Assembly: GCF_003046175.1 (NCBI RefSeq)
Contig: NZ_PZZM01000001.1
Coordinates: 124,001-188,000 of the forward strand
Source: Bosea sp. 124
GTDB lineage: Bacteria; Pseudomonadota; Alphaproteobacteria; Rhizobiales; Beijerinckiaceae
Direction of reading: 5' to 3'
DNA length: 64,000 nt
Made by a program: the position numbers and the translations under genes. Below are positions 5,653-41,160 of the stretch, piece by piece (the first letter of the stretch is position 1; each line of letters opens with the position of its first letter). The notes beneath the pieces were generated by a model. The model was given only the letters and a program-made list of their open reading frames with translations. It searched no databases and was not told the DNA's origin.

Positions 5653-5664
5653 CGAGGGCGCCAA

Positions 5665-6540
5665 CTACCGGGACAGGGTCCGCCCCGGCGATTTCAGCCC
5701 ATCGCGGATGTAGCGTGCCAGTTCGTTCGTCGCGGGACTCGCCTGGCGGTCAGGCATGTGCAGCGCGATGGCGAAGGCAGGCAGCTCCGGGAGGCCGGAG
5801 GACAGCGGCAGGACATCGACATCGTTTGGAACGGTCGAGGCCAGGCAGGCCGATATGGCCAGGTCCGCCCGCACGGTCGCGAAGGTCGCCTCAAGACTGC
5901 CGTTCTCGAAAACCGTCCTCCACGCGCGCCCCTGGCCACGCAGGGAGGCCGCGACAGCCGGGCTGAAGGCACAACTGTCTGCAACCAGCGAGACGGGCAA
6001 AGGTGTCCTGGAATGGGCCCGCCCGCCCCTGGCTCCGACCCAGACCAGGCGGTCGACCGCCAGGCATTCCCCGGTGACGCCCGCAATCGGCTCCTCCAGA
6101 ACGGCGATGTCGACCCGGCCGTCGGCAACGCTTCGCAGCAATTCCGGGGACGAGTCGCATGCGAGCGACAGCATGACATGGGGGCAAGCCGCGCCGAAGG
6201 CCTTGAGCACCGGAGTGAGATGGGGGCCGACAAGGTCATAGGGCGCGCCGAGCCGAACGGGACCGGCGATCGCGCCGCCGTTGAGATCCGTCCAGATCTC
6301 GTCATTGAGAGCGAGCATCTGGCGGGCCTGCGGGAGCAGGCGCTCTCCCGACGATGTCAGACGCAAGCCACGTCTTTCCCGGGTCAGCAGAGCCCCGCCT
6401 GCGGCCTGCTCCAGGCGTGCGATCTGCTGGCTGATGGCGCCCTGCGTGAGATGCAGGATCTGGCTGGCCGCCGTCATGCTGCGCTGATCGGCAACAGCCA
6501 CGAAGGCTCGCAAGAGAGCGATGTCGAGATTTCGCGCCAT
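5665..6540 (-). CDS. LysR family transcriptional regulator
   Basis: The 291-residue regulator has an N-terminal winged helix (LLRAFVAVADQRSMTAASQI...QGAISQQIARLEQAAGGALL) and a C-terminal LysR substrate-binding domain (GPVRLGAPYDLVGPHLTPVL, ISACLASTVP). It is transcribed away from a LysE-type exporter gene, the usual arrangement in which the regulator controls the exporter in response to the exported compound. The AT-rich 98-bp region between them contains an inverted repeat (6557-6582). The ligand is not deducible, though amino acids or related small molecules are typical for LysR/LysE pairs. Confidence 0.9.
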   Translation of the reverse strand: MARNLDIALLRAFVAVADQRSMTAASQILHLTQGAISQQIARLEQAAGGALLTRERRGLRLTSSGERLLPQARQMLALNDEIWTDLNGGAIAGPVRLGAPYDLVGPHLTPVLKAFGAACPHVMLSLACDSSPELLRSVADGRVDIAVLEEPIAGVTGECLAVDRLVWVGARGGRAHSRTPLPVSLVADSCAFSPAVAASLRGQGRAWRTVFENGSLEATFATVRADLAISACLASTVPNDVDVLPLSSGLPELPAFAIALHMPDRQASPATNELARYIRDGLKSPGRTLSR

Positions 6541-6556
6541 TGCTATATTATAGATT

Positions 6557-6582
6557 CTAATTCATGAAACACACAGAATTAG
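6557..6582. promoter_or_regulatory. Inverted repeat in lysR-lysE intergenic region, candidate LysR operator
   Basis: Perfect 7-bp arms CTAATTC (6557-6563) and GAATTAG (6576-6582) are separated by 12 bp in a strikingly AT-rich stretch that also contains TATATTATA at 6544-6552. Position between divergent genes fits an operator of the adjacent LysR regulator; the assignment is inferred. Confidence 0.5.
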
Positions 6583-6638
6583 TTTTCCTTGAATGCCCGC
6601 GCGCCTTATCGCCGCCACTCCCACAGAGAGGTGGCCCC

Positions 6639-7229
6639 ATGGCAGCGCTGATGCCGCTCATCCTGTTCGTTCTCATGTCGACGATCAGCCCCGGCGGCGC
6701 GACGACGCTCGCGACGGCATCGGGCGCGAATTTCGGGCTCCGCCGCTCGCTGCCGCTGATCACGGGAATCGCCGCAGGCCTCGCGGTGATGGCGGCCTCC
6801 GCGGCCGGTGGCCTCGCCGGCATCCTGCTCGCCGTCCCATCGCTCCAGACGCTGATGAAGGCCGGCGGGTCGCTTTATCTGCTCTGGCTCGCCTGGCAGA
6901 CGGCCGGCCGCGGTTCGCCTCGTATTGCCAAAGACACCGCCGAACCCATCGGCTTCCTGGGTGGCGTCGGGCTGCTCTGGATCAATCCCAAGGGTTGGGC
7001 GATGACGCTTGGGGCGGCAGCATCCTTCGCCATGCTCGCGGAAGGGCCACTCCATCAGGCGCTGCTGCTCGGCTTCGTCTTCGGCCTGTGTGCGCTCATC
7101 TCGCTGTCCGCCTGGTGCGCGGCCGGGTTCCTGCTCGCACGCGCTTTGCGCACCGACAGGCAGTGGCGGATTCTGAATATCGTCCTGGGAATTCTGCTCG
7201 CGGCGTCGATCGTGCCGATGTGGTTTTGA
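6639..7229 (+). CDS. LysE family exporter
   Basis: The 196-residue inner-membrane protein has about six hydrophobic helices and the family signature near the N-terminus (PLILFVLMSTISPGG followed by a conserved G-ATTLATASGANFG). It also has GLLWINPKGWAMTLG in the middle, equivalent to the family NPK motif. LysE/RhtB proteins export amino acids or similar compounds. The start at 6639 is preferred over 6564 because AGAGAGGTGG precedes it at good spacing and the extra N-terminal 25 residues are not hydrophobic. It is convergent with cobT; the 137 bp between the two stops hold nothing I can name. Confidence 0.87.
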   Translation: MAALMPLILFVLMSTISPGGATTLATASGANFGLRRSLPLITGIAAGLAVMAASAAGGLAGILLAVPSLQTLMKAGGSLYLLWLAWQTAGRGSPRIAKDTAEPIGFLGGVGLLWINPKGWAMTLGAAASFAMLAEGPLHQALLLGFVFGLCALISLSAWCAAGFLLARALRTDRQWRILNIVLGILLAASIVPMWF

Positions 7230-27106: not shown

Positions 27107-28690
27107 TCAGTAGACGTCCGCCTGATAGCGCCCGGCCTTCTTCAGTGCTGCGACATAGGCAACCGCCTCGTCAGGCGAGCGCTTGCCGTGCTCGGCGACG
27201 ACATCGACCATCGCCCGCTCGACATCCTTGGCCATGCGCTTGGCATCGCCACAGACGTAGAAATGCGCGCCCTGCTCCAGCCAGGCGAAAAGCTCGGCTC
27301 CACGCTCGCGCATGCGGTCCTGAACATAGATCTTCTCGCTGCCGTCGCGCGACCAGGCCAGCGTCAGGCCGGTGAGGACGCCCTCCTGCTTCATCGCCGT
27401 CAGCTCGTCCTCGTAGAAGAAGTCGCTGGCGCGGCGCTGATGGCCGAAGAACAGCCAGTTCCTGCCCGGCGCCCCGGTCGCGCGGCGGTCATGCAGGAAG
27501 GCGCGGAAAGGTGCGACGCCGGTGCCCGGGCCGCACATGATGACGGGCGTCTGCGGATCGGCGGGAAGGCCGAAGCCATGGGCGCGCTGGACATAGACCG
27601 GCACCTTGTCGCCGGGCTGGACGCGTTCGCCGAGGAAGGTCGAGGCCACGCCCCAGCGCGGGCGGCTGCCGATCTTGTAGCGCACCGTGTCCACCGTCAG
27701 CGTGATGCGACCGGGGGTCGCCACGCAGGAGGACGAGATCGAGTAGAGCCGCGGCTGCAGCGGGTCGAGCGCCTCGAAGAAGGCCTCGGCCGAGAGCCGG
27801 GCCTGACCGAATTTGTGCAGCGTGCCGAGCACGTCGAGCCGGTCGAGATCGCCATCGGGGTCCTCGCCCGCAGCGAGGCGCTTGGCCTTGGCGCGGGTCT
27901 CGCCGCCGGTGACATAGGAGATGAGCTGGAACAGTGCGTCGGGCGCCGGGCCGAGCGCGCGCTCAGCGATCAGCGCCTGCCGCAGTGTCGTGCCGCCGAC
28001 ATCGGCATCCGGACGCACGCCGAGCAGCGCGATCACCGCATCGACGAGGCGCGGATCGTTCTGCGCGACGATGCCGAAGGCGTCGCCGACGATGTAGTCG
28101 AGGCCGCATTCGCTCAGATCGAACTCGACATGCCAGGTCTCCTTCTCGGAGCCCTCGCCATTAAGCTTGCGGCGCGAGAGGAAGGTCGCCAGCGCGGGAT
28201 TTTCACGCGAGCGGCCGATGGGGCCTGCGGGCGCGGCCGGTGCCGCCTCGGACGAGGCGGCGGCTGGAGTCGAACCCGCCTCCTCCGTCAGAGCCTTCAG
28301 CATCCGCAGCGTATCCTTGCCGCCGGGCGCGCAGAGGTTCAGCCGCGGCTCCTTGCCCTCGGCGATCGCGGCCGAATAGGTCTCGCAGACATAGCCGCAC
28401 TGGCCGCAATCCTGCTGCGCCATCGCGGCGAAGAGCTTCCTCGGCAAGGGCTTGCCCTCGGCCAGCGTCATCCGCTCGGCCATCTCCAGCGACGGATCGT
28501 GCCAGGGCGCGCCGTCATCCGCCTCACCCATCACGGCGGCATTCTCGGCCGGCGACAGCGCCGTGACGCCTGCATTGTCGAGCGAGAGCAGGCCGGCGAA
28601 GAAGCCGTTCAGCCAGGAGCGCTGCTCCTCGCTGAAGGGTGCAGTCTCGGGCAGGACCTGGACGAGCGGGCTTGCGGTCTGGACGGTCAT
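27107..28690 (-). CDS. FeS-FAD-NADPH reductase (CysJ-like, no flavodoxin domain)
   Basis: The 527-residue protein combines an N-terminal FeS domain like that of RnfB (DCGQCGYVCETY plus NLCAPGG; Cys95, 98, 102 and 120) with a CysJ/diflavin-type FAD and NADPH module: PRLYSISSS (FAD), CGPGTGVAPFRAFL (NADPH), WLFFGHQRRASDFFY and HFYVCGDAKRMAKDVE, ending ...RYQADVY with the family aromatic C-terminus. The FMN flavodoxin domain of CysJ is absent; the FeS cluster may replace it. The ATG overlaps the nirA stop (ATGA), so the probable job is to feed NADPH electrons to the nitrite reductase or nitrate reductase. This is inferred from context. Confidence 0.85.
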   Translation of the reverse strand: MTVQTASPLVQVLPETAPFSEEQRSWLNGFFAGLLSLDNAGVTALSPAENAAVMGEADDGAPWHDPSLEMAERMTLAEGKPLPRKLFAAMAQQDCGQCGYVCETYSAAIAEGKEPRLNLCAPGGKDTLRMLKALTEEAGSTPAAASSEAAPAAPAGPIGRSRENPALATFLSRRKLNGEGSEKETWHVEFDLSECGLDYIVGDAFGIVAQNDPRLVDAVIALLGVRPDADVGGTTLRQALIAERALGPAPDALFQLISYVTGGETRAKAKRLAAGEDPDGDLDRLDVLGTLHKFGQARLSAEAFFEALDPLQPRLYSISSSCVATPGRITLTVDTVRYKIGSRPRWGVASTFLGERVQPGDKVPVYVQRAHGFGLPADPQTPVIMCGPGTGVAPFRAFLHDRRATGAPGRNWLFFGHQRRASDFFYEDELTAMKQEGVLTGLTLAWSRDGSEKIYVQDRMRERGAELFAWLEQGAHFYVCGDAKRMAKDVERAMVDVVAEHGKRSPDEAVAYVAALKKAGRYQADVY

Positions 28691-30489
28691 GCCGCATCTC
28701 CCGTCTGCGCGACGAGCGCCTGCAGCGCCGCGATCTCGTGGCGACGGGCGAAAGCGACAAAGCTCTCGTCCGGCCCGGCGCGATGGACGGTCCATGTCCG
28801 CAGGATCGCCTCGACCAGCGCCGGTGCGTCCTCCGCCTTCACATCGGTGCGGAATTCGCGGCCGATGCCCCCCTCGACGCCGAAGCCCCCGCCGACGAAG
28901 ACATGGTAGCCCGGCACGGTGTCGCCCTCGTCGCTGACCGGCACCTTGGCGCCGATCAGGCCGAGATCGCCGATATAGTGCTGGGCGCAGGAGTTGTGGC
29001 AGCCGGTCAGATGGATATTGACGGGGGTGTCCAACGTAATCCGCGGCTCGCAATGGGCGGCGATGGCGAGCGCATCCTCCTTGGTGTGGGCACCCGCGAA
29101 TTTGCAGCCTGTCGCGCCCGTGCAGGCGATCAGCCCGGCGCGGAGGATCGAGGTCTCGGCCGAAAGACCGATGGCCTGAAGATTGGCGACGACATCCTCG
29201 ACTTTCGCATCGGGCACACCCGAGATCAGCAGGTTCTGCCAGACGGTGAGGCGGATATCGCCATCGCCGCAAGCTTGCGAGATCGAGGCGATGACGCGCA
29301 TCTGCTGGACGGTGAGCTTGCCGACTGGAAGCGCCACGCCGATCCAGTTGAGGCCGGGCTGAACTTGGGGATGCACGCCGATATGACCGAGCCGGTCATA
29401 GGCCGGGCGCGGCTTGACGAAGGCTGCATCGAGACGGACGAGCCTGCGGCCCAACTTCTCCTCGACCGCCGTCAGGAACGTCTCGAAGCCCCAGGCGTCG
29501 AGCAAATATTTCAGCCGCGACTTGTTGCGGTCGGTACGGTTGCCGTTGGCGATGAAGACACGCACGATCGCATCCGACACCGCGATGGCATCCGAGGGCG
29601 CGACGATGACGCCGGTGTCGCGGGCGAGGTCCTTGTGGCCGGTGATGCCACCGAGCGCGAGGCGGTACCAGATGCCCGGCGGGACGGGCTGGCCTTCGAA
29701 GACGGCGCCCTCGCCGACCTCGATGGCCTGGAAGCCGATGTCGTTGGTGTCCTCCAGCGTCGCGATTGAACCCGCACCGTCGAAGGCGACGTTGAACTTG
29801 CGCGGCAGGCCGTAGAGCGAACGGTCGTTCAGGATGTGGTGGTGCCAGGCGCGGGCATGGGGACGGGTGTCGAGCAGTTCGAGCGGGTCGATGCCGGCGG
29901 TCGCCGAGCCCGTGACATTGCGGATGTTGTCGGCGCCCGAGCCTTTGGCGGTGAGACCAAGATCGGCGAGACCCTCGAGCAGCGCGGCCGCATTCTCGGC
30001 CGGGATCTCGCGCACCTGAAGATTGGCGCGCGTGGTGACGTGGCTGTAGGGGCCGCAGAGTTTCTCAGCCAGATCGGCGACGCCAGCGAACTGCCAAGCC
30101 TTCAGGATGCCGTTGGGAATGCGCAGCCGGCACATATAGCTGTTCTGCGCCGGGGCTACGTAAAACAGGCCGTGATAGCGCCAGCGGAAATTGTCCTCGG
30201 GCTTCGGATAGAGGCCGGCCTTCGCCTGGTCCTTGAAGCGGGCATAGGCATCGAAGGGGTGCTCGGCCGCCTTCCACTTCTCCTGATCGACGAGCTTGCC
30301 GCCGGCCGCGACGGTCTTCGCCTGCGCCTCCTGATGCTCCCTGTCGGGGCCGCTCGGCCTGGCCGCGCCGCCTGCGCCGCCCTGCGCGCTGCCGAGCGGA
30401 GCCAGTCCGCGCGCCGTGCGGGCCGACTGCATGCCGCTCATGAAGCCTTCGAGATAGCGCTTCTGGTCGGGGGTGAAATCGTCGCTCAT
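28687..30489 (-). CDS. nirA: Siroheme nitrite/sulfite reductase (NirA type)
   Basis: The 600-residue monomeric enzyme has two ferredoxin-like/siroheme repeats. The cluster- and siroheme-binding cysteines are in ACTGATGCKFAGAHTK and HLTGCHNSCAQHYIGDLGLIG (about residues 455-515). It reduces nitrite to ammonium with six electrons in the cytoplasm. The position between globin and FeS-FAD reductase genes in a nitrate-assimilation operon favours nitrite over sulfite. The N-terminal 60 residues are a Gly/Ala/Gln-rich linker (GSAQGGAGGAARPSG) not part of the catalytic fold. It starts 21 bp after the globin stop. Confidence 0.93.
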   Translation of the reverse strand: MSDDFTPDQKRYLEGFMSGMQSARTARGLAPLGSAQGGAGGAARPSGPDREHQEAQAKTVAAGGKLVDQEKWKAAEHPFDAYARFKDQAKAGLYPKPEDNFRWRYHGLFYVAPAQNSYMCRLRIPNGILKAWQFAGVADLAEKLCGPYSHVTTRANLQVREIPAENAAALLEGLADLGLTAKGSGADNIRNVTGSATAGIDPLELLDTRPHARAWHHHILNDRSLYGLPRKFNVAFDGAGSIATLEDTNDIGFQAIEVGEGAVFEGQPVPPGIWYRLALGGITGHKDLARDTGVIVAPSDAIAVSDAIVRVFIANGNRTDRNKSRLKYLLDAWGFETFLTAVEEKLGRRLVRLDAAFVKPRPAYDRLGHIGVHPQVQPGLNWIGVALPVGKLTVQQMRVIASISQACGDGDIRLTVWQNLLISGVPDAKVEDVVANLQAIGLSAETSILRAGLIACTGATGCKFAGAHTKEDALAIAAHCEPRITLDTPVNIHLTGCHNSCAQHYIGDLGLIGAKVPVSDEGDTVPGYHVFVGGGFGVEGGIGREFRTDVKAEDAPALVEAILRTWTVHRAGPDESFVAFARRHEIAALQALVAQTGDAA

Positions 30490-30510
30490 GGTTCTGCTCT
30501 GGCTGACGGA

Positions 30511-30933
30511 TCAGGCCGTTGTGCTCTGGCCGGCCGCCGCGATCATCGCGCCGGAGAGGGTCCCGTAGGCGCTCGTCCAGGCGTCCCTGACGGCAGGGGT
30601 GAAGCCTTCGCCGAGGCCCTGCTCCAGCGTCCAGAGCAGCGCCGCGCCGACCGGCGCGTAATGCGCCGCCGTGACGCCGTAGCCATTGTGCTTGCGGGCC
30701 AATGCGCCCACCGCGGGCATCAGGGCCGGCAGGTCGTCGAGCCCCTTCACCACGACGGCGAGCGTGCCCATCAGCTTGCGGCCCTGCTCTTTCATGTCCG
30801 TGACCTTGAACAAGGGCCGGACCTCGGGGGCGATCTCGAACAGGCGGCCGTAGAACAAGGCGGCAGCCTGCTCGGCAATAGGGGCGACCTTGGAGAAGCT
30901 CGCCTTGATTTCGGAAACCTGATCGGGGGTCAT
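30511..30933 (-). CDS. Single-domain globin
   Basis: The 140-residue protein is a Vitreoscilla/flavohaemoglobin-type single-domain globin. Helix landmarks are MTPDQVSEIKASFSKVAPIA, ALFYGRLFEIAPEVRPLFK (B-C-E region with the conserved F), the proximal-side HNGYGVTAAHYAPVGAALLWTL (F8 His in AARKHNGYGV) and WTSAYGTLSGAMI. The start at 30933 (MTPDQ...) is preferred over 30975, which lies inside the nrtD gene. Within an assimilatory nitrate operon it probably handles nitric oxide formed as a by-product, by family analogy. Confidence 0.9.
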   Translation of the reverse strand: MTPDQVSEIKASFSKVAPIAEQAAALFYGRLFEIAPEVRPLFKVTDMKEQGRKLMGTLAVVVKGLDDLPALMPAVGALARKHNGYGVTAAHYAPVGAALLWTLEQGLGEGFTPAVRDAWTSAYGTLSGAMIAAAGQSTTA

Positions 30934-30943
30934 GATCGTCTCC

Positions 30944-31735
30944 TCAAGCCGCTTCGACGAAGCGATGGCGCTCATAGAGGAACTTCAGCACCGCTTCGCG
31001 GGCGGCGATGTAAGTGCGGTCGGCGACCAGGTCGAGCCGCTTGCGCGGGCGCGCCAGACGGACGTCGAGCACCTCGCCGATGCGGGCCGAGGGGCCGTTG
31101 GTCATCATCACGATCCGGTCCGAGAGCAGCACGGCCTCATCGACGTCATGGGTGATCATGATCATCGTGTTCCCGAGGGTGGCATGGATCTGCATGATCG
31201 AATCCTGCAGATGGGCGCGGGTCAGGGCGTCGAGCGCCCCGAAGGGCTCGTCGAGCAACAGGATCTTCGGCTCCATCGAGAGACCTCGCGCGATGCCGAC
31301 GCGCTGCTTCATGCCGCCGGAGATTTCGCCCGGCCGCTTGTCCTTCGCGTGTCCCATCTGGACGAGCTCAAGATTGTGCATGATCCAGTCATGCCGCTCG
31401 GCCTTCGACTTCCGTCCGCTGAAGACCTTGTTCACGGCGAGTGCGACATTGTCGTAGACGGTGAGCCAGGGCAGCAGCGAGTGGTTCTGGAACACCACCG
31501 CGCGCTCCGGACCGGGGTCCCGGACCTCCCGCCCCTCGAGCAGGACGGCGCCGGCCGAGATCGGCGTCAGCCCCGCGATGATGTTGAGCAAGGTCGACTT
31601 GCCGCAGCCGGAATGGCCGATCACCGAGACATACTCGCCCTTCTCGATCTCGAGGCTGATGTCCTTGAGCACGTTGGTCGAGGCTGCTCCGCGCTGGAAG
31701 GTTTTGTCGACGTGATCGATCTTGAGATAGCTCAT
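30944..31735 (-). CDS. nrtD: Nitrate ABC transporter ATP-binding protein
   Basis: The 263-residue ATPase has Walker A VIGHSGCGKSTLLNIIAG, signature ISGGMKQRVGIARGL, Walker B KILLLDEPFGALD and VTHD-equivalent ITHDVDEAVLLSDRI. DVRLARPRKRLDLV at the end is typical of NrtC/NrtD/SsuB/TauB-type ATPases. It energises nitrate import with NrtB and the binding protein NrtA. The spacing is 10 bp to both neighbours, so it belongs to the single nas operon. Confidence 0.93.
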   Translation of the reverse strand: MSYLKIDHVDKTFQRGAASTNVLKDISLEIEKGEYVSVIGHSGCGKSTLLNIIAGLTPISAGAVLLEGREVRDPGPERAVVFQNHSLLPWLTVYDNVALAVNKVFSGRKSKAERHDWIMHNLELVQMGHAKDKRPGEISGGMKQRVGIARGLSMEPKILLLDEPFGALDALTRAHLQDSIMQIHATLGNTMIMITHDVDEAVLLSDRIVMMTNGPSARIGEVLDVRLARPRKRLDLVADRTYIAAREAVLKFLYERHRFVEAA

Positions 31736-31745
31736 GCTCGCCTCC

Positions 31746-32654
31746 TCAGTTGGTCAGGGTGCCGCGGGTGACGATGGTGCCGACGAAGGCGACGAGGCGG
31801 TCGAGCACGAAGCCGACGACGCCGATGTAGATGAGCGCCACGATGATGTCGGAGAGGCGCGAGGAGTTCCACGCGTCCCAGATGAAGAAGCCGATGCCGA
31901 CGCCGCCGGTCAGCATCTCGGCCGCGACGATGGCAAGCCAGGACAGGCCGACGCCGATGCGCAGGCCGGTGAAGATGTAGGGCGCGGCCGAGGGCACCAT
32001 GATCTTGAAGAAGAACTCGATCTGGTTCAGCCGCAGCACCTGCGCGACATTGCGGTAGTCCTGCGGGATGTTGCGGATGCCGACCGCAGTGTTGATGATC
32101 ACCGGCCAGATGGCGGTGATGAAAATCACGAAGATCGCCGAGGGCTGGCTGTCGCGGAAGGCGGCGAGCGAGAGCGGCAGCCAGGCGAGCGGCGGCACGG
32201 TGCGCAGCACCTGGAAGACGGGATCGAGCCCGCGCATGGCCCAGACCGACTGGCCGACCAGCGCGCCGAGCAGCACGCCGACGATCGCCGCCAGGCTGAA
32301 GCCGATGGCGACGCGCTGGAGCGAAACCAGGATGCGCCAGCCGAGCCCGATGTCCTGGGAGCCCGCCCAGTAGAACGGCTCGACGATCAGGTCCTTCGCC
32401 TCCTCCCAGATCTTCGTCGGCGGCGGCAGCGAGGATTGCGGACCCGACGCCGCGATCTGCCAGAACAGCGCGATCAGCGCGACCGTGACCAGCGGCGGCA
32501 GGACATTGACCAGCACCGCCTTGAGCCAGGGCAGCAGGCGCTGGCCCAGCCGCTTGCGCGACGCAACGGGCAGCGGCACGATTCCGGGCTTCGCACCCGG
32601 CAGGGTGACGACCGTCGCTCCTGCAGTCGCTTCCTTCAAGACAGCCCGACCCAT
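31746..32654 (-). CDS. nrtB: Nitrate ABC transporter permease
   Basis: The 302-residue permease has a basic N-terminus and about six to seven helices. Characteristic segments are FQVLRTVPPLAWLPLSLAAF, FVIFITAIWPVIINTAVGIR, the EAA-like loop QVLRLNQIEFFFKIMVPSAAPYIFTGLRIG, and VGIGFFIWDAWNSSRLSDII. These match NrtB/CmpB permeases for nitrate or bicarbonate; the operon makes nitrate likely. The start at 32654 (MGRAVLKEATAG) lies 34 bp after the nasA stop; the frame further upstream is inside nasA. Confidence 0.93.
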   Translation of the reverse strand: MGRAVLKEATAGATVVTLPGAKPGIVPLPVASRKRLGQRLLPWLKAVLVNVLPPLVTVALIALFWQIAASGPQSSLPPPTKIWEEAKDLIVEPFYWAGSQDIGLGWRILVSLQRVAIGFSLAAIVGVLLGALVGQSVWAMRGLDPVFQVLRTVPPLAWLPLSLAAFRDSQPSAIFVIFITAIWPVIINTAVGIRNIPQDYRNVAQVLRLNQIEFFFKIMVPSAAPYIFTGLRIGVGLSWLAIVAAEMLTGGVGIGFFIWDAWNSSRLSDIIVALIYIGVVGFVLDRLVAFVGTIVTRGTLTN

Positions 32655-32688
32655 CCGGTCCTCCTGTGGTTGGTGTGTTCGCAATGGC

Positions 32689-35394
32689 TCATGCTGCGAC
32701 CGTCGTGCGCGACTGCGCGCCGATCCGGCGGATCTCCGGCAGGCATGATCCGCAATTGGTGCCGGCCCGAAGCTGCCGGCCGATATCCTCGGGCGTCGCC
32801 GCGCCGCCGGCGAAGGCGGCCCGGATCGCATTGAGGCCAACGCCGAAGCAGGCGCAGACGGTCGGGCCGGGGTCGGCCGCGCCGTCGAGGCTGCGGCCGG
32901 CGAGCAGCGCCAGTCGGTTCTCCGGCAGGGCCTGCGCGTCGGCAAAGGCGAGCTTGACCGTGTCCCAGAGCGGCGCGCGGCCGGCGGGGGCAACGAAGAG
33001 AGCCGCTTCGAGTCGACCATCCCGCAGGACGGCACAGCGATAGACGCCGCCCTGGAGATCGACCATTTCAGTCAGCCCGTCTTCGCCGAAGGCGGCACGG
33101 ATGCTCGCCATCAGTTCGGCCGGCGCGGCGTCGGTGGCGAAGAGCCTGCCCTCGCCGCCGTCGACTGCGAGCTTCGACCACCAGCTCCCCTCCGGCAGGA
33201 CAAAGCCACCGCGCGACAGCACGAAGCCCTGCGAGGCATAGGCGACGGGGGCGATGGAGGACGGCGTCGCCTTCATCTCCGGCTGGCCGGAAAAGGGGTC
33301 GCAGGCCGGCTGGACGACCGCGCCGATACGACCATGCGAGGCGGTCTCGCCCGACCAGTGGATCGGCGCGAAGAGCGAGCCGGGCTGGACGCCCGGATCG
33401 AGTGCGACCTTGAGCACGACCGCACCGAACGCGTTGCTGATGCGGGCGAAACCGCCCTCGACCAGCCCGAAATGGACCGCATCGGCTGGATGAACCTGGA
33501 CAAGAGGCTCGGAGATATGGGCGCTGAGGCGCGCACTCAGACCCGTGCGCGTCATCGTGTGCCAGTGGTCGCGGACGCGGCCGGTGTTGAGAAGCAGAGG
33601 GAAGGCCTCGCTCACCGACGCCGCAAGGGCCGGAATGGCGAGCGGTGTCATCCTGGCGCGGCCGTCTCCGGTGAAGAAGCCGCCCTGCGCGAAGAGGCGC
33701 GGCGTGCCGAGAGGCTGCCCCGCGGGCACCGGCCATTGCACCGGCCTCAGCGCATCATAGGCCCGCTTCGGCAGCGCGGCATGGGCTCCGATGTCGAAAT
33801 CGCGCGTACCGCCGTTCTCGAAAGCCGAAAGCGCCGCATGCTCGGCATAGATTTCGACCGGGCCGGCATAGGCGAAGGCCTCGCCGAATCCAAGGCGGCT
33901 GGCCAGCTCGCAGACGATCCACCAGTCCGGCCTGGCCTCGCCCGGCAGGCGGAGGAAAGCGCGCTGGCGCGAGATGCGGCGCTCGGAATTGGTGACGGTG
34001 CCGTCCTTCTCGCCCCAGGCGGCAGCCGGCAGGATGAAATGTGGCTTGGCCTGGAGCGTGTCGTTCGAGAGCACGTTCTCCGAAACGACGAAGAGATCGA
34101 GGTCGCCGAGTGCGGCCTTGACCTGATCGGCGCGCGGCAAAGAGACCGCCGGATTGGTCGCCATCACCCAGAGCGCCTTGATGCGGCGCTCCGCCACGGC
34201 TTCCATCATGGCGACGGCCTTCAGCCCTTCGGCCTGCGCCATGTTCGGCGCCTTCCAGAAGCGCCCGACGCGGTCGATCTCGGCGGCCGAATAGCCCATA
34301 TGGGCGGCAAGCATGTTGGCGAGCCCGCCGACCTCTCGCCCGCCCATGGCGTTGGGCTGGCCAGTCAGCGAGAACGGTCCGCCGCCCGGGCGGCCGATGC
34401 GGCCGGTGGCGAGGTGGCAGTGCAGGATCGCGGCAACCTTGTCGGTGCCCTGAGCCGACTGGTTGACGCCCTGGCTCCAGGCCGTGACCACGGCCGGCGT
34501 TTCGGCCCAGAGGGCGTAGAAGGCGGTGATCTGTGCCGGCTCCAGCCCGGTGCGGGAAGCGATGGTGGCGAGATCGGGCGCAAGGGTGCGGGCATTTTCC
34601 AGCGTCGCCTCGAAGCCGGTGACGTGACGGGCGACATAGGTCGCGTCGGTCAGGCCATGATCGGCGAGATGAACCAGCAGGCCGGCGAAGAGCACCGAAT
34701 CGGAGCCTGGCTTCAGCGGCAGCACGAGATCGGCATCCTGGGCGGTCGCGGTGACGCGGGGATCGATGACGACGATGCGGGCACCGCGCTCGGCCCGGTT
34801 CTGCTGCATGCGGCGGAACAGGACGGGGTGGCACCAGGCGGTGTTCGAGCCGCCGAGCACGATCAGATCGGCGCAGTCGAGATCCTCGTAATTGCCGGGG
34901 ACGGTGTCGGAGCCGAGCACGCGGCGTTGGCCCGCAACCGTCGAGGACATGCAGAGCCGCGAATTGGTGTCGACATGAGGCGAGCCGATGAAGCCCTTCA
35001 TCAGCTTGTTGGCGACGTAGTAATCCTCGGTCAGGAGCTGGCCCGAGAGATAGAACGCGACCGCATCAGGTCCGTCGCGCGCGATGATCGCTTGCAAGCC
35101 GTCCGCCACCGCGTCGAGCGCGACATCCCAGCCGACCCGGTCGTAGCCGCCGGCCGCATTGCGGCGCAGCGGATGCAGCACGCGCGTACCCAGCCCGAGC
35201 GTTTCGCCCAGCGCCGAGCCCTTGGAGCAGAGCCGGCCGAGATTGGCCGGATGGGACGGATCGCCCGTGATCGCGACAGCGCCATTCTCGCCCGGCGTCA
35301 CGATGACGCCGCAGCCCACCCCGCAATAGGGGCAGGTCGTGCGGATCGCACCGTCGGGCATGCCGGGACCGGGGCGGTCTGCGTCGCTGCGCAT
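32689..35394 (-). CDS. nasA: Assimilatory nitrate reductase, catalytic subunit
   Basis: The 901-residue molybdopterin enzyme reduces nitrate to nitrite in the cytoplasm. The N-terminal 4Fe-4S cluster is bound by TTCPYCGVGCGV (Cys21, 24, 28) and the cysteine in GRLCSKGSALGETLG. Moco-binding stretches include DTNSRLCMSSTVAG, LIVLGGSNTAWCHPV, WVMATNPAVSLP and the C-terminal molydopterin domain NTGRVRDHWHTMTRTG. The last 60 residues form a BFD-like 2Fe-2S domain (VCACFGVG ... TNCGSCLPEIRRIG) as in the Klebsiella NasA class, which would receive electrons from an FAD partner. It begins 1 bp after the stop of the FAD oxidoreductase gene. Confidence 0.96.
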   Translation of the reverse strand: MRSDADRPGPGMPDGAIRTTCPYCGVGCGVIVTPGENGAVAITGDPSHPANLGRLCSKGSALGETLGLGTRVLHPLRRNAAGGYDRVGWDVALDAVADGLQAIIARDGPDAVAFYLSGQLLTEDYYVANKLMKGFIGSPHVDTNSRLCMSSTVAGQRRVLGSDTVPGNYEDLDCADLIVLGGSNTAWCHPVLFRRMQQNRAERGARIVVIDPRVTATAQDADLVLPLKPGSDSVLFAGLLVHLADHGLTDATYVARHVTGFEATLENARTLAPDLATIASRTGLEPAQITAFYALWAETPAVVTAWSQGVNQSAQGTDKVAAILHCHLATGRIGRPGGGPFSLTGQPNAMGGREVGGLANMLAAHMGYSAAEIDRVGRFWKAPNMAQAEGLKAVAMMEAVAERRIKALWVMATNPAVSLPRADQVKAALGDLDLFVVSENVLSNDTLQAKPHFILPAAAWGEKDGTVTNSERRISRQRAFLRLPGEARPDWWIVCELASRLGFGEAFAYAGPVEIYAEHAALSAFENGGTRDFDIGAHAALPKRAYDALRPVQWPVPAGQPLGTPRLFAQGGFFTGDGRARMTPLAIPALAASVSEAFPLLLNTGRVRDHWHTMTRTGLSARLSAHISEPLVQVHPADAVHFGLVEGGFARISNAFGAVVLKVALDPGVQPGSLFAPIHWSGETASHGRIGAVVQPACDPFSGQPEMKATPSSIAPVAYASQGFVLSRGGFVLPEGSWWSKLAVDGGEGRLFATDAAPAELMASIRAAFGEDGLTEMVDLQGGVYRCAVLRDGRLEAALFVAPAGRAPLWDTVKLAFADAQALPENRLALLAGRSLDGAADPGPTVCACFGVGLNAIRAAFAGGAATPEDIGRQLRAGTNCGSCLPEIRRIGAQSRTTVAA

Positions 35395-35395
35395 G

Positions 35396-36610
35396 TCAGG
35401 CCGCCTTCCCGACGCAATAGGGCTCGCCGAAGGGCAGGTCGGCGCGGATCGCGGAAATGTCTTGCCCGGAGCGGATCAGGCCGAGATAGAACAGCGCCCC
35501 TTGCGTATCGCCGACGAGGACGCAGCCCACGAGCCGGCCCTCGCGCAGGACGAATTTGCGGTAGATGCCGGCGAAGCGGTCCCGCAGCACCACGGTCTCG
35601 GCGCCCTCGCCAGCCTCGAACTCGCCGGCCGAGAACACGCCGACGCCACTGACCTTGAGATTGGTCGCGAGCAGCGAACCGGCATAGGCGGCCGACTTGC
35701 CCGCGAGCCGGGCAGCTAGTACCCGCGCCTGCTCATAGGCCGGCTCGACCAAGCCATAGACGCTGCCGCGATGCTCGGCGCATTCGCCGATCGCGAAAAT
35801 GCTGTCGTCGTCGCTCGCCATGCCGTCATCGACGACGATGCCACGGTTGACGGCGAGACCGGCGGCCCTGGCGAGATCGGTGTTCGGCCGCACGCCGATC
35901 GCGATGACGACGAGATCGGCAGGAATGATCGTGCCGTCCTGCAGTTCGACGCCCTCGACCGTGTCTGTGCCGACGAAACCTTTCGTCGCGCTGTTCAGGC
36001 GCACAGCGATGCCGCGCGCGGTGATCGCCGAGGCCAGCAGGGCGGCGCCCTCGGCATCGAGCTGGCGCTCCATCAGCCGGTCGACCAGATGCAGCAGCGT
36101 GACGTGTCCGCCTGCCCTCGCGAGGCCGTATGCCGCCTCCAGCCCGAGCAGGCCGCCGCCGATGACGACGATGCGCGCCCCGCGCTCGGCAAAGCTGCGC
36201 ATCGCCTCGACATCGGCGGTGTCGCGGAAGGTCGCGACGCCGGGCAACTCGCCGCCCGGAAAGGGCGGCTTCAGCGGCTTCGAACCCGTCGCCAGCACGA
36301 GCTTGCCGTATGGCAGGGTCAGCCCGTCCTCCAGCGTGACCGTCCTGGCAGCGCGATCGACCATCGAGACGGCACGGCCATAGAGCGTCGAGACGCCGCG
36401 TGCCTGCCACCAGGCGGCGGGCTTCAGCTCGATGTCGGGCTCGCCGATCTCGCCCGCCAGCAGGGGAGAGAGCAGCACCCGGTTGTAGGCCAGGCGGCCT
36501 TCAGCCCCGATCACCGCGATGGAATAGCGGCCGAGCGCGCGCTGGCTGAGCTCGTCAACCAGCCGCGTCGCGGCCATGCCCTTCCCGACGATGATCAGGG
36601 GCTCGGCCAT
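35396..36610 (-). CDS. FAD-dependent oxidoreductase, NasB/NirB N-domain-like
   Basis: The 404-residue flavoprotein resembles rubredoxin/ferredoxin reductases and the N-terminal part of NirB: LIIVGKGMAATRLVDEL (FAD), LAYNRVLLSPLLAGE, LVLATGSKPLKPPFPG, IVVIGGGLLGLEAAYGL (NADH), and SIFAIGECAEHRGSVYGLV. It most likely passes NAD(P)H electrons to NasA through its 2Fe-2S domain. It lacks the BFD and siroheme domains of full NirB. It is flanked by nrtA (3 bp) and nasA (1 bp) and is certainly co-transcribed with both. Confidence 0.9.
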   Translation of the reverse strand: MAEPLIIVGKGMAATRLVDELSQRALGRYSIAVIGAEGRLAYNRVLLSPLLAGEIGEPDIELKPAAWWQARGVSTLYGRAVSMVDRAARTVTLEDGLTLPYGKLVLATGSKPLKPPFPGGELPGVATFRDTADVEAMRSFAERGARIVVIGGGLLGLEAAYGLARAGGHVTLLHLVDRLMERQLDAEGAALLASAITARGIAVRLNSATKGFVGTDTVEGVELQDGTIIPADLVVIAIGVRPNTDLARAAGLAVNRGIVVDDGMASDDDSIFAIGECAEHRGSVYGLVEPAYEQARVLAARLAGKSAAYAGSLLATNLKVSGVGVFSAGEFEAGEGAETVVLRDRFAGIYRKFVLREGRLVGCVLVGDTQGALFYLGLIRSGQDISAIRADLPFGEPYCVGKAA

Positions 36611-36613
36611 GGC

Positions 36614-37948
36614 TCAGGCCACCCGCTTGATCTTCAGGGCCTTGAGATAGTCCATCGGCGCCGCCGGATCGAACTTCACGCCGTCGAAGAAGGTCTCGAC
36701 GCCGCGCGAGTCTGTCGTCGGAGCGCCCGCGACGCCCAGCGTCTTGGCCGCCTCGCGCCAGAGATCGGAGCGGTTCGTCTTGTCGACGAGCCCCTTGATG
36801 TCGATCGTCGGCTCGAACTTGCCCCAGCGGATGTTCTCGGTGACGAACCAGGTGTCGTGACTCTTGAAGGGATGGGAGACTTCACCGCCCTCGCCCCAGA
36901 ACTTCATGTAGAGGTTGGTGCCCTTGGCCTCGCGGCCGTTGCCATAGTTGATGTCGCCCTGCAGGCGCTTGTTGATATCGTTGACGGGGACGTTGAACCA
37001 TTGCCGCCGGCCGACGATCTCGGAGAGTTCCTGGCGGTTCTCCATCTTGTCGGCCCATTGCTGGGCTTCCATCACCGCCATCAGGATGGCCTGCGTCGCC
37101 TTGGGATTGGCATCGACGAAGTCGGCGCGCATGCCGAGGATCTTCTCGGGATGCTTGAACCAGAGTTCGCCGGTGGTCAGCGCGGTATAGCCGATGTTCT
37201 GGTTGACGAGCTGTTCGTTCCAGGGCTCGCCGACGCAGAAGCAGTCCATCGTGCCGACCTTCATGTTCGCCACCATCTGCGGTGGCGGCACGACAATGAC
37301 CTTGATGTCGGTGTCGGGATCGATGCCGCCGGCAGCAAGCCAGTAGCGGATCCAGAGGTCGTGGGTGCCGCCCGGGAAGGTCATGGCGGCGGTCAGCTCC
37401 TTGCCGGCAGCCTTCTTGCGTTCGAAGGCCTGCTTCAGCGGCGAGGAATCCTTCTGGACGTTGAGGTCCTTGTATTCGTTGGAGACCGAGATCGCCTGCC
37501 CGTCCTGGTTCAGGTTGAGCAGCGTGTACATCGGCAGCGGCTGGCTGTTCTGCATCACCTTGCCGGTCGCGTAGAGATGCGTCTTCGGGCGCAGGATGTG
37601 GCCGCCATCGATGCCGTTGGCCTTGAAGCCGAGCGCCATGTTGTCGCGCGTCGCGCCCCAGGAAGCCTGTTTGGCGATGTCCATATCGGGCAGACCATAT
37701 TTGGCGTAGAGCCCCTTCTCCTTGGCGATGATCAGGGGCGCAGCATCCGTCAGGGCGATGTAGCCGAGGCGCGTGCCCTTGATCTCAGGTCCGGCCGATT
37801 GGGCGAAGGCGCCCGACGGCAAGGCCAGCCTGGCGGCGCTCAGCAGGGCCGCCGTGCCCGAGAGCCTGAGCAACTGGCGACGGCCGGCGTCAATGGCCCG
37901 GTCGTCGATGGCAATGGCTTTCGGCTTGGTCTCGACTGTCTTGGTCAT
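36614..37948 (-). CDS. nrtA: Nitrate ABC transporter substrate-binding protein
   Basis: The 444-residue exported protein has a Tat-like signal (DAGRRQLLRLSGTAALLSAARLA) and an NrtA/CmpA body: TRLGYIALTDAAPLIIAKEK, GATRDNMALGFKANGIDGGH, PLPMYTLLNLNQDGQAI, GGTHDLWIRYWLAAGG, VPPPQMVANMKVGTMDCFCVGEPWNEQLV. It binds nitrate in the periplasm for NrtBD. The start at 37948 (MTKTVETKPKA) is preferred over upstream codons because those lie within the antitermination leader. It is the first gene of the nas operon. Confidence 0.95.
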   Translation of the reverse strand: MTKTVETKPKAIAIDDRAIDAGRRQLLRLSGTAALLSAARLALPSGAFAQSAGPEIKGTRLGYIALTDAAPLIIAKEKGLYAKYGLPDMDIAKQASWGATRDNMALGFKANGIDGGHILRPKTHLYATGKVMQNSQPLPMYTLLNLNQDGQAISVSNEYKDLNVQKDSSPLKQAFERKKAAGKELTAAMTFPGGTHDLWIRYWLAAGGIDPDTDIKVIVVPPPQMVANMKVGTMDCFCVGEPWNEQLVNQNIGYTALTTGELWFKHPEKILGMRADFVDANPKATQAILMAVMEAQQWADKMENRQELSEIVGRRQWFNVPVNDINKRLQGDINYGNGREAKGTNLYMKFWGEGGEVSHPFKSHDTWFVTENIRWGKFEPTIDIKGLVDKTNRSDLWREAAKTLGVAGAPTTDSRGVETFFDGVKFDPAAPMDYLKALKIKRVA

Positions 37949-37998
37949 CGATCGCCTCTCGGTGTGGACGTGAATGGGCCCGCCAGCCGCCGAACACG

Positions 37999-38047
37999 AA
38001 AAACGCCGCGCGAAATGCGCCCAGGGGCACGTTTCGACAGCGGCGTT
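37999..38047 (-). terminator. Intrinsic terminator in the nrtA leader
   Basis: On the minus strand, AACGCCGC (38047-38040) pairs with GCGGCGTT (38009-38002), followed by further T residues to 37999. Inside, CGAAA pairs with TTTCG and a GC hairpin caps the structure. It would stop transcription 50 bp before nrtA unless prevented. Its 5' arm overlaps hairpin P2. Confidence 0.8.
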
Positions 38048-38093
38048 GCTGTGCATTCCGGTTCGGAGGATGACGCGGGCAGCGTTGGCCGCG
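38037..38093 (-). promoter_or_regulatory. ANTAR (NasT) target RNA: two hexaloop hairpins
   Basis: Minus-strand hairpin P1 (38093-38074) has arms CGCGGCC and GCCCGCG with one C-C mismatch and hexaloop AACGCT. P2 (38052-38037) has arms ACAGC and GCTGT and hexaloop AACGCC. Both loops have A at position 1 and G at position 4, the known recognition pattern of ANTAR antiterminators. P2 and the terminator use the same bases (38047-38040), so NasT binding would prevent termination. Confidence 0.82.
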
Positions 38094-38106
38094 TTGCAGC
38101 ATTCCT

Positions 38107-38122
38107 TACAAGGATCGTGCCA
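38107..38122 (-). promoter_or_regulatory. Sigma-54-type promoter of the nas operon
   Basis: The minus strand reads TGGCACGATCCTTGTA, with TGGCAC and TTGT spaced as in the -24/-12 consensus (TGGCAC-N5-TTGCA; T replaces C at the last conserved position). Transcription would begin near 38096, three bases before hairpin P1. I saw no convincing NtrC site upstream. Confidence 0.7.
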
Positions 38123-38256
38123 AATGAGGCTCAGATGCGCATAGTCTGGAATTGCAATAAGTTAGCTGGCGCTGCCAGCACGAGGCGAGGGCGCGAGAGG
38201 CTATCCCGCGCTGCACAAAAGGCCGCCATCGCATAAAAAGACGGCATCATCAGCCA

Positions 38257-39303
38257 TCAATAATCATTGCCCGGAAAATAGGCAGGACGAAACACCGCCC
38301 TCGCCTGCTCGGTCATCTCCGGCGTGCGGACGATCTGCCCGGCGCTTTCCATCCCGGCCAGAATCCAGTCCGCGTGAGCCGGCTCCGGCCGCAGCGCGGC
38401 GCGGTCGAAACGGATGAAGCGCTCGACCTGCCGGGGTGGGCGCCCGCCGCCCTGCACCAGGTTGAAATGCAGCACCGGCTCGAGGATCTCCACCGGGAGC
38501 GCGAGCCTGTCCGCTGCCGAGAGGTGTTTGGCGAAGCGCGGGATGTTGGCGGGGTCGCAGGCCCATTCGCTGGCCCGGAGAATCGCGGCGGTGAGCTTCC
38601 CGACCGCCGCAGGCCGACGCTCGAGATCGTCGGCCTGCCAGGCCAGCACCTTGTCGGGGCAGTCGCGCCTGATATCGGTGCCGGTGTGGACCATGGCGCC
38701 GACGCCGGCGGAGACTGCCGCAGCGTTCCAGGGTGCGCCGGCGCAGAAGCCGTCGACGCGCCCGCTCGTCAGTGCCTCGACAGTCTGGGGCGGCGGCACG
38801 ACCTCGAAACGGATATCCACGCCCAATGTCAGCCCGCCCTTGGCGAGCCATTCGCAGAGAAGATAGGTGTGGCTGGAGAAGCCGAAGACCGCGGCCAGCG
38901 TCAGCGGCGGCAGGCCCGATGCCTTGCGACGCGCCACGAGCGCCGCCAGCGCACGGGCCGAGATCGCGGTGTCCGCCACGTCGCCATCAGCCAGACGCGC
39001 CAGTTCCTCGTAACGGCGCACCGACACCGTGATCGCGGCGCCGTCGAGATTGAGCGCCAGCGGCACCGCCATCGGCACCCTGACCCCGCCGACGCCGAGC
39101 GTGGCGGCGATCGCCGCCGGGCCCAGCATATGGGCCGCGTCGAACAGGCGGACATTCAGCTTGTCGCGCAGGTTGGACCAGGAGACCTCGCGCACGAGCT
39201 CGAGATTGAGCCCCTCGGCCTCGGCGAAGCCCTGATCCTTCGCGAGGACGACCAGCGCGCAATCAACCAGCGGCATGAAGCCGACACGCAAGTGCAGGGT
39301 CAT
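38257..39303 (-). CDS. nasS: Nitrate/nitrite sensor NasS
   Basis: The 348-residue protein resembles NrtA (LRVGFMPLVDCALVVLAKDQ, EVSWSNLRDKLNVRLFDAAHMLGP, VVPPPQTVEALTSGRVDGFCAGAPWNAAAV) but has no signal peptide, so it is cytosolic. In known systems, NasS without nitrate holds the antiterminator NasT inactive; nitrate binding frees NasT. The nasT gene overlaps its start by 4 bp, and the target leader lies directly downstream at 37999-38096. Confidence 0.93.
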   Translation of the reverse strand: MTLHLRVGFMPLVDCALVVLAKDQGFAEAEGLNLELVREVSWSNLRDKLNVRLFDAAHMLGPAAIAATLGVGGVRVPMAVPLALNLDGAAITVSVRRYEELARLADGDVADTAISARALAALVARRKASGLPPLTLAAVFGFSSHTYLLCEWLAKGGLTLGVDIRFEVVPPPQTVEALTSGRVDGFCAGAPWNAAAVSAGVGAMVHTGTDIRRDCPDKVLAWQADDLERRPAAVGKLTAAILRASEWACDPANIPRFAKHLSAADRLALPVEILEPVLHFNLVQGGGRPPRQVERFIRFDRAALRPEPAHADWILAGMESAGQIVRTPEMTEQARAVFRPAYFPGNDY

Positions 39304-39884
39304 TTCAGCACCTCGGCTGCCGTGATGACGGAGCGCGCGATGTCGATGAGCTTGCGCTTCTCGTTCATCGCCGTGCGCCGCAGCAGGGCGTAGGCCTCGT
39401 CCTCGGACAGGTTCTTCATGCGCATCACGATGCCCTTGGCGCGATCGACCAGCTTGCGCTCCTCGAGCTGGGAGCGGGCCTCGTCCAGTTCCTCGCGCAA
39501 TTTCCGGAAAGCGTTGAAGCGACTGATGCAGGTCTGCAGGATCGGCTGCATGCGCTCCTTCTTCAGCCCGTCGACGATATAGGCCGAGACGCCGGCCTCG
39601 ACCGCGGCCTCGATCGAAGCGGAATCCGACTGGTCGACAAACATGGTGATCGGCCGCCTGACATGGCGGCTGACCAGGAACATGTCGGCCAGCGCATCGC
39701 GGCTCGGATCCTCGAGATCGATCACCACCACGTCGGGATCGTGCGTCTCGATGGCCGCGACGAGCCCGTGCGTCGCGCCGATGCGGACGAGGTCCGTGAA
39801 GCCGGCCTCGCGCAGGCCCTCGTCGATGATGGCCGCGCGCACCGGGTTGGCGTCGACGATCAGGATTTTCAGAGCGGGCCTCAT
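39300..39884 (-). CDS. nasT: ANTAR-domain antiterminator NasT
   Basis: The 194-residue protein has an N-terminal receiver-like domain (ILIVDANPVRAAIIDEGLRE, VVVIDLEDPSRD) and a C-terminal ANTAR RNA-binding domain (about residues 125-190) with ERKLVDRAKGIVMRMKNLSE, DEAYALLRRTAM and IARSVI. It binds two-hexaloop hairpins in leader RNA and prevents termination; two such hairpins precede nrtA. Activity is controlled by NasS, whose gene overlaps by 4 bp. The 39-bp gap to hupE makes co-transcription with the urease genes possible. Confidence 0.95.
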   Translation of the reverse strand: MRPALKILIVDANPVRAAIIDEGLREAGFTDLVRIGATHGLVAAIETHDPDVVVIDLEDPSRDALADMFLVSRHVRRPITMFVDQSDSASIEAAVEAGVSAYIVDGLKKERMQPILQTCISRFNAFRKLREELDEARSQLEERKLVDRAKGIVMRMKNLSEDEAYALLRRTAMNEKRKLIDIARSVITAAEVLK

Positions 39885-39923
39885 GGCCGGCGACGGAGCC
39901 CCGGCTGACGGAGGAAAGGGACG

Positions 39924-40511
39924 CTAGCCGGCGAGGATGGCGACGCCCGCCAGCGCCAGACCGCCTCCGGCGATGCGGGCCAGCAGCGGCGCGCGCGCTG
40001 CCAGGACACCTGCCAGGCCGAGGCCGAGACCATGCAGCGCGGCCGTCGCCAGCACGAAGCCCAGCGCATAGCCGAGGCCGCTCGCGCCGGCCGGCAGTTC
40101 AGCGCCATGGGCATGGCCATGGAAGATCGCGAAGATGGCGCAGGCAGCGGTGCCAGCCGCCAGCGGCGGGGTCAGGTTCAGCGCGATCGCGAGGCCGAGC
40201 ACCACAACCGAGACGGCGATGCCGATCTCGACGCCCGGCAGCGCCGCGCCCGACATGCCCCACAGGCCGGCGACGACCATCATCGCGACGAAGGCGAGCG
40301 GATAGGCGAAGCGCGCCCGGCCGCCGACCAGCCCGGCCCAGAGGCCGACCGCGACCATCGCGAGGACATGGTCCAGGCCAAACAGCGGATGCAGGATGCC
40401 GGCCTCGAAACCATGGACCGCGCCGACGCCGGTATGCGCCAGGGCCGGCCCAGCCAGGCCCAGCGTCACCACAGCCGCGCCCATCATCTTCACAACTGCC
40501 TGCATCGTCAT
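39924..40511 (-). CDS. ureJ: HupE/UreJ family nickel transporter
   Basis: The 195-residue membrane protein starts with a signal-like helix (AVVTLGLAGPALAHTG) and has the HupE/UreJ signature HPLFGLDHVLAMVAVGLWAG plus FAIFHGHAHGAELP and ATAALHGLGLGLAG. The His/Asp residues in H-x4-D-H and H-G-H-A-H-G are thought to bind nickel. It follows ureG by 16 bp, in keeping with Ni supply to urease. HupE and UreJ are the same family, so the symbol is by context. Confidence 0.9.
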   Translation of the reverse strand: MTMQAVVKMMGAAVVTLGLAGPALAHTGVGAVHGFEAGILHPLFGLDHVLAMVAVGLWAGLVGGRARFAYPLAFVAMMVVAGLWGMSGAALPGVEIGIAVSVVVLGLAIALNLTPPLAAGTAACAIFAIFHGHAHGAELPAGASGLGYALGFVLATAALHGLGLGLAGVLAARAPLLARIAGGGLALAGVAILAG

Positions 40512-40527
40512 CTCCCTCCGCCGTCCG

Positions 40528-41160
<633 letters not shown>

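Follow-up and report, generated by a model that had tools for sequence, protein, structure and literature searches.

A probable NasT-controlled leader with widely spaced hexaloop hairpins upstream of a nitrate assimilation operon in Bosea sp. 124

The window analysed is a 64,000-nucleotide stretch of the Bosea sp. 124 genome (contig NZ_PZZM01000001.1, positions 124,001 to 188,000), and all coordinates below are positions within it. Its minus strand carries, in order, ureG, a gene for a HupE/UreJ protein, nasT, nasS, a leader, nrtA and seven further genes. The first gene of the operon, nrtA (36614 to 37948), encodes a nitrate-binding protein of the NMT1_2 family, and its start was placed by the motif GAGAGG. 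The seven co-directional genes 3' of nrtA (27107 to 36610), assigned from ORF layout and protein families with several starts approximate, encode a NirB-like FAD protein (35396 to 36610), a molybdopterin nitrate reductase (32689 to 35394), a permease (ORF end at 31746), an NrtC/D ATPase (30944 to 31735), a globin (30511 to 30975), NirA (28687 to 30489), and an FAD/NAD reductase, a flavoprotein whose gene ends at 27107, facing a plus-strand gene. The original prediction, made from the sequence of the window, had counted eight genes behind one leader, and this number fits both the ORF layout and the protein families. Upstream of the leader, nasS (38257 to 39303) encodes an NrtA-like sensor, judged by eye from the start of its alignment to have no signal peptide, and nasT (39300 to 39884) encodes a protein with a receiver and an ANTAR domain. 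The adjacency of nasS and nasT described earlier is thus correct, and the two genes overlap by four bases. A simple terminator scan, which found three sites against 0.5 expected, detected a hairpin resembling a terminator where nasS ends (38240 to 38258). The HupE/UreJ gene and ureG lie on the same strand as nasT (39300 to 41160), and because nasT starts only 39 nt behind the HupE/UreJ gene, nasT and nasS may be read together with the urease genes.

The leader begins with a sigma-54-like box, TGGCAC-N5-TTGTA (38107 to 38122, minus strand), read directly from the sequence, with the -24 element at 38120 and the -12 element at 38108; from these positions, transcription is predicted to start near 38096. 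The -12 element is GT rather than GC. The first hairpin, P1 (38073 to 38094), identified from sequence, folding and relatives, has the hexaloop AACGCT (38086 to 38081); its outermost base is +3 relative to the predicted start, and a C.C mismatch adjoins the closing C-G pair of its stem. A linker of 20 nt (38053 to 38072) holds a weak mini-hairpin, UCCG-AAC-CGGA (38067 to 38057), and is followed by the second hairpin, P2 (38037 to 38052), which has the hexaloop AACGCC (38047 to 38042) and was identified from sequence and relatives. The intrinsic terminator (38002 to 38047) pairs the arms AACGCCGC (38047 to 38040) and GCGGCGTT (38009 to 38002) and ends in a T-run (38003 to 37999); its 5' arm consists of the P2 loop and two bases of the P2 stem, so that the second hairpin overlaps the terminator. 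Both hairpins have at least three pairs and hexaloops with A at position 1 and G at position 4 (A1/G4), P1 with its one internal mismatch, and the distance from loop to loop is 39. Base-by-base reading of the minus strand agreed with the original prediction on the two hairpins, their loops and coordinates, on the bases 38047 to 38040 that P2 shares with the 5' arm of the terminator and the T-run behind it, and on the upstream sigma-54 box. The elements had been described correctly, and what that description overlooked was the C.C mismatch in P1 and a linker beyond the length permitted for EutV. About 90 nt upstream of the box, the dyad TTGTGCG-N-CGCACAA is conserved in Bosea, as seen in an alignment of 33 upstream regions from which one locus (L031) was left out because the pattern did not match it. 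The dyad is perfect in two loci (L007 and L022) and degenerate in the window (38206 to 38218, minus strand), and may be the site of an activator.

In the minimum-energy fold of 38100 to 37985, P1 and the terminator form whereas P2 does not, and the fold has a z score of -2.46, with 2 of 200 shuffles equally good. The hexaloop register of P1 (-8.8 or -9.7 kcal/mol) is favoured over a bulged heptaloop register (-7.6 kcal/mol) by 1.2 to 2.1 kcal/mol, at the cost of the C.C mismatch. The P1 loop could also close an A1-U6 pair, which counts against the reading as a NasT switch. The mini-hairpin in the linker has an energy of -3.2 kcal/mol (p of 0.067 to 0.076 against shuffles), and 76.5% of its cells are paired across the Bosea alignment. 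The simple terminator scan, which takes loops of 3 to 8 bases only, did not list the leader terminator. A search of Rfam returned no family matching the leader at E values up to 10; its five matches within 36000 to 40000 all lie outside the leader and fall below the gathering scores.

A single match to PF03861 was found in the complete 5.47-Mb genome, and it is the NasT encoded beside the leader, so the genome holds a cognate ANTAR protein. NasT matches the solved structures of EutV (6wsh), Rv1626 (1s8n), NasR (4akk) and AmiR (1qo0). Ten residues named as RNA contacts of EutV were compared with NasT by alignment (numbering offset of 2); NasT has the same residue at seven of them and a K/R exchange at the other three. 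NasS is nearest to the C-terminal (regulatory) domain of CmpC, to NrtC and to NrtA, and an ANTAR response regulator next to an NrtA-like protein without signal peptide is the arrangement that marks NasS-NasT. A search of the genome with model R1, built on the Bosea leader, gave one strong site (E of 6.9e-23) and fourteen further matches with E values of 0.21 to 9.4; 150 of 7,463 candidates were scored, and targets with other stems could be missed.

The conservation of the leader was followed in 34 near loci (L002 to L035) whose NasT proteins are 74 to 97% identical, the nearest of them being Bosea by name. The same layout is present in the window and in 33 of the 34. The remaining locus, L033, has nasT and no match to nasS or nrtA in the stretch examined. 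In L031, the leader lies between nasT and nrtA (4736 to 7043 of that locus) with no separate nasS match, and for this reason its NasT may be unrestrained. A1 and G4 never vary in either loop across the 34 leaders (the 33 and the window). The P1 loops follow A-N-N-G-C-T, with all four letters at position 3, and the P2 loops are AACGCC in 24 leaders and AACGTC in 10. Position 3 of the P2 loop is C in all 34, as its pairing in the terminator demands; in a locus outside this set, L041, the P2 loop is AATGCC and the terminator arm is altered to match (GCGGCATT). The sigma-54 box is kept in all 34 leaders, as is the C.C at pair 2 of P1, and the distance from the -12 element to the P1 loop is 22 nt in 27 leaders, 23 in six and 21 in one. 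Comparison within Bosea is uninformative for covariation of P1 and P2 because their stems are almost invariant. The upper stem of the terminator is variable, yet only one pair has changed on both sides.

For a wider set of 180 loci, nasT served to fix the orientation. A first detector (74 of 169 loci) missed real Bosea leaders and was replaced by one that found 126 of 180. The wider scan covered 140 loci, comprising the window and loci outside the Bosea set, with at least 1,000 bases free of N in the stretch from 850 to 2,000 bases after nasT. At a detector score of at least 18, the pattern occurred in 81 of the 140 loci, in none of 420 shuffles and in none of the 140 reverse strands. All sixteen choices for loop bases 1 and 4 were then compared for two hexaloops with a terminator overlapping the second, at a score of at least 20: A/G gave 75 loci, G/G four and the remaining 14 choices none. 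The detector found no leader in 65 of the 140 loci. Four genomes of one genus (g40, family f35; L093, L173, L179 and L182) have GACGCC as the P2 loop, in which G replaces A at position 1, and their nearest upstream hexaloop retains A1/G4; they form an exception to the A1 rule.

Pairing in P1 was assessed in loci selected by their P2 and terminator (86 of 140) that had a single upstream C-ANNGNN-G core (64 loci, the 22 with no core or several being left out), which left the P1 stem itself unselected and gave 41 distinct arms. Pairs 2 to 5 are formed in 39, 39, 33 and 30 of these, against shuffle means of 25.1, 18.2, 19.4 and 19.1, and the observed counts were reached in 0 of 2,000 shuffles. The covariation expected of the hairpins in related genomes was therefore borne out for P1 across the order, and inside Bosea the near-invariant stems had nothing to say. 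The window holds the sole C.C at pair 2, both among the 41 arms and among the 75 wide leaders. RNAalifold on two clade alignments counted compensatory pairs as 0 of 7 and 0 of 10, a sequence alignment being unable to match up hairpins as variable as these. A further 40 loci, drawn from other orders and classes of the phylum, were scanned (up to 12.6 kb, both strands); 28 scored at least 20 compared with none of their 40 shuffles (best 18.9); some few of the 28 may be chance matches.

The leader is very probably a transcription attenuator controlled by NasT. This reading draws on the RNA parts and their conservation, the covariation of P1, the bases shared by P2 and the terminator, and the adjacency and uniqueness of NasT, all of which are sequence observations. 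Comparison with relatives likewise supports the ANTAR antitermination leader that had been proposed for NasT. The steps of binding, release by nitrate and antitermination are modelled on EutV, NasR and the NasS-NasT pair of Paracoccus. RNA polymerase with sigma-54 would start near 38096, and the RNA would have P1 right at its 5' end. In the absence of nitrate, NasT would be held by NasS, the RNA would adopt P1 and the terminator, and transcription would stop at 38003 to 37999. In the presence of nitrate or nitrite, NasS would free NasT, and a NasT dimer would grip the A1/G4 hexaloops, first that of P1 and then that of P2. Held in this way, P2 would withhold its loop and 3' arm from the terminator, and nrtA and the seven genes behind it would be read. 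By analogy with eutP, where the closing pairs of P1 matter (PMC3369931, PMC8934654), the C.C mismatch in P1 and the 20-nt linker count against this reading, as do the 65 wider loci in which the detector found no leader and the lack of compensatory pairs in the two clade alignments.

Two other explanations dispense with an RNA-binding NasT. In translational attenuation, an extended nrtA, or else a leader peptide, would be translated from an in-frame ATG at 38056, and the ribosomes would decide the fate of the terminator. The nrtA frame is indeed open from 38056, but only 5 of 34 aligned Bosea leaders have that ATG, single-base differences in leader length break the frame, and a good ribosome site precedes 37948, which makes this explanation very improbable. 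It is slightly more improbable still that the inverted repeats, which do lie just downstream of a promoter, are DNA sites of a regulator and not RNA hairpins, since the motif is strand specific (0 of 140 on the reverse strand) and is tied to the loop letters A1/G4 and to a terminator that shares the bases of P2.

The antitermination switch itself is of a known kind, and what is new here is the spacing. Natural eut linkers are 5 to 12 nt; eutP linkers of 3 or 14 nt destroyed or greatly reduced induction, and 20 nt added to a eut linker in vitro had the same effect on the action of EutV (PMC3369931, PMC8934654). A survey of predicted actinobacterial ANTAR RNAs accepted linkers of 2 to 25 nt. The linker of 20 nt in the window falls outside the eutP type of spacing. 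Among 75 loci with NasT leaders in the Hyphomicrobiales, 47 belong to a compact class with loop distances of 17 to 28 and 28 to an extended class with loop distances of 31 to 60. Where a sigma-54 box could be located, 19 compact loci, two of which have a poor box, show a distance of 58 to 76 nt from the -12 element to the P2 loop, and two more a distance of 105; among the extended loci, 13 have 51 to 72 nt and one has 87. The box was not found in 26 of 47 compact and 14 of 28 extended loci. Total length is thus alike, and the RNA of both classes has its first hairpin at the 5' end. In a tree of 78 NasT sequences, built by a quick method that joined the long branches L206 and L207, the extended state needs eight changes, at least three of them forced by well-supported branches.

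The linkers of the extended class (25 representatives including Bosea) fold better than shuffles (Fisher, 1.2e-7), and equal stretches upstream of P1 in extended leaders do not (0.32). With loci holding a nearer hexaloop left out, linkers longer than 23 nt (10 representatives) gave 1.3e-9 against shuffles, and those of at most 23 nt (five representatives including the window) showed no significant hairpin (p of 0.51). Four extended representatives with a compact hexaloop in the linker (L183, L102, L109 and L169) were kept in one folding set, the 34-nt test; such loci are absent from the set of 25 and from the split by linker length. Folding also beats shuffles in the compact class, both for the 34 nt upstream of P1 (1.7e-10, 34 representatives) and, in the 17 compact loci with a sigma-54 box, for the part from the predicted start to P1 (3.9e-7, 12 representatives). 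The control stretch, 34 nt downstream of the compact T-run, also beats shuffles (p of 0.0066), which indicates a mild background of structure. With no compensatory pairs in the two clade alignments, the case for a first and a middle hairpin rests on folding against shuffles and not on column covariation. In one genus (g188), three consecutive A1/G4 hexaloop hairpins stand before one terminator, at positions 42, 18 and 0, and triple A1/G4 hexaloops occur in three of the five loci examined there (L241, L245 and L247). It was not borne out that the third hairpin is as a rule another A1/G4 hexaloop: the best upstream hairpins in 40 of 47 compact loci have loops of 3 to 9 bases, with five hexaloops, three of them A/G, and some such palindromes lie over the promoter.

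These patterns can be read as three slots in NasT leaders, H1 at the 5' end, H2 in the middle and H3 in the terminator, among which the pair that is read has moved repeatedly, a slot without hexaloop serving as a spacer so that one NasT dimer can reach both of the hairpins it reads; we regard the chances for and against this as evenly balanced. On this scheme, with the same balance, the hexaloops would lie in H1 and H3 in extended leaders such as those of the window and Bosea (P1 in H1, the mini-hairpin in H2, P2 in H3), in H2 and H3 in compact leaders, and, for some lineages, in every slot. The 20-nt linker would then be a trait of the extended class, whose spare length seems to fold into a middle hairpin in other lineages. 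A literature search on a third or triple hairpin with ANTAR, within papers accessible free of subscription, found leaders with two hairpins and no such three-hairpin leader. The long linker would be immaterial and the middle hairpin a bystander if NasT needed P2 alone or if P1 did no more than load it. EutV touches a single hexaloop at any one time and can bind either P1 or P2 in isolation (PMC3369931, PMC8934654), and the shorter extended linkers, as noted, show no significant hairpin. Against this, P1 with A1/G4 is retained in 34 of 34 Bosea leaders, linker length matters in eutP and in vitro according to the same papers, and nas expression in Paracoccus was lost when hairpin HI was altered (PMC3795266, PMC5424462). 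We consider this reading, with P2 sufficient or P1 for loading only, rather unlikely, though clearly less so than the two explanations without RNA binding.

An eight-gene nitrate operon can thus be read as a putative switch from its sequence. The rule of 5 to 12 nt between hairpins comes from one system, and several families of a single order depart from it in their extended NasT leaders, a class that search models built for a short linker would overlook. With the extra hairpin, it can be tested directly whether an ANTAR dimer gauges the length of RNA between its two hairpins or their separation in space.

As in Paracoccus denitrificans (PMC3795266, PMC5424462), nasT and nasS lie beside the leader, NasS resembles NrtA, and the stretch separating nasS from the operon holds hairpins and a site of termination. 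In that organism the leader RNA of nasA is bound by NasT, and binding is putative here. In contrast to Paracoccus nasA, the first gene in the window is nrtA of an ABC importer, a sigma-54 box stands at the leader, and the loop letters and the terminator overlap are brought out by comparison. The nos and nirA systems of Bradyrhizobium diazoefficiens, a bacterium of the same order, likewise use NasT antitermination through leader hairpins (PMC6759348); the regulon there has multiple sites, whereas model R1 found one strong site in this genome. Klebsiella NasR-nasF is likewise a nitrate-responsive ANTAR antitermination system of an assimilation operon, but NasR senses nitrate itself, a role that NasS would have here (PMC3369931, PMC3795266). 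The EutV-eutP system shares with the window two A1/G4 hexaloops and a P2 embedded in the terminator (PMC3369931, PMC8934654). The window differs from it in the loop distance (39 against 24 by numbered loop bases), the 20-nt linker, the C.C in P1 and the presence of NasS in place of a phosphorylation partner.
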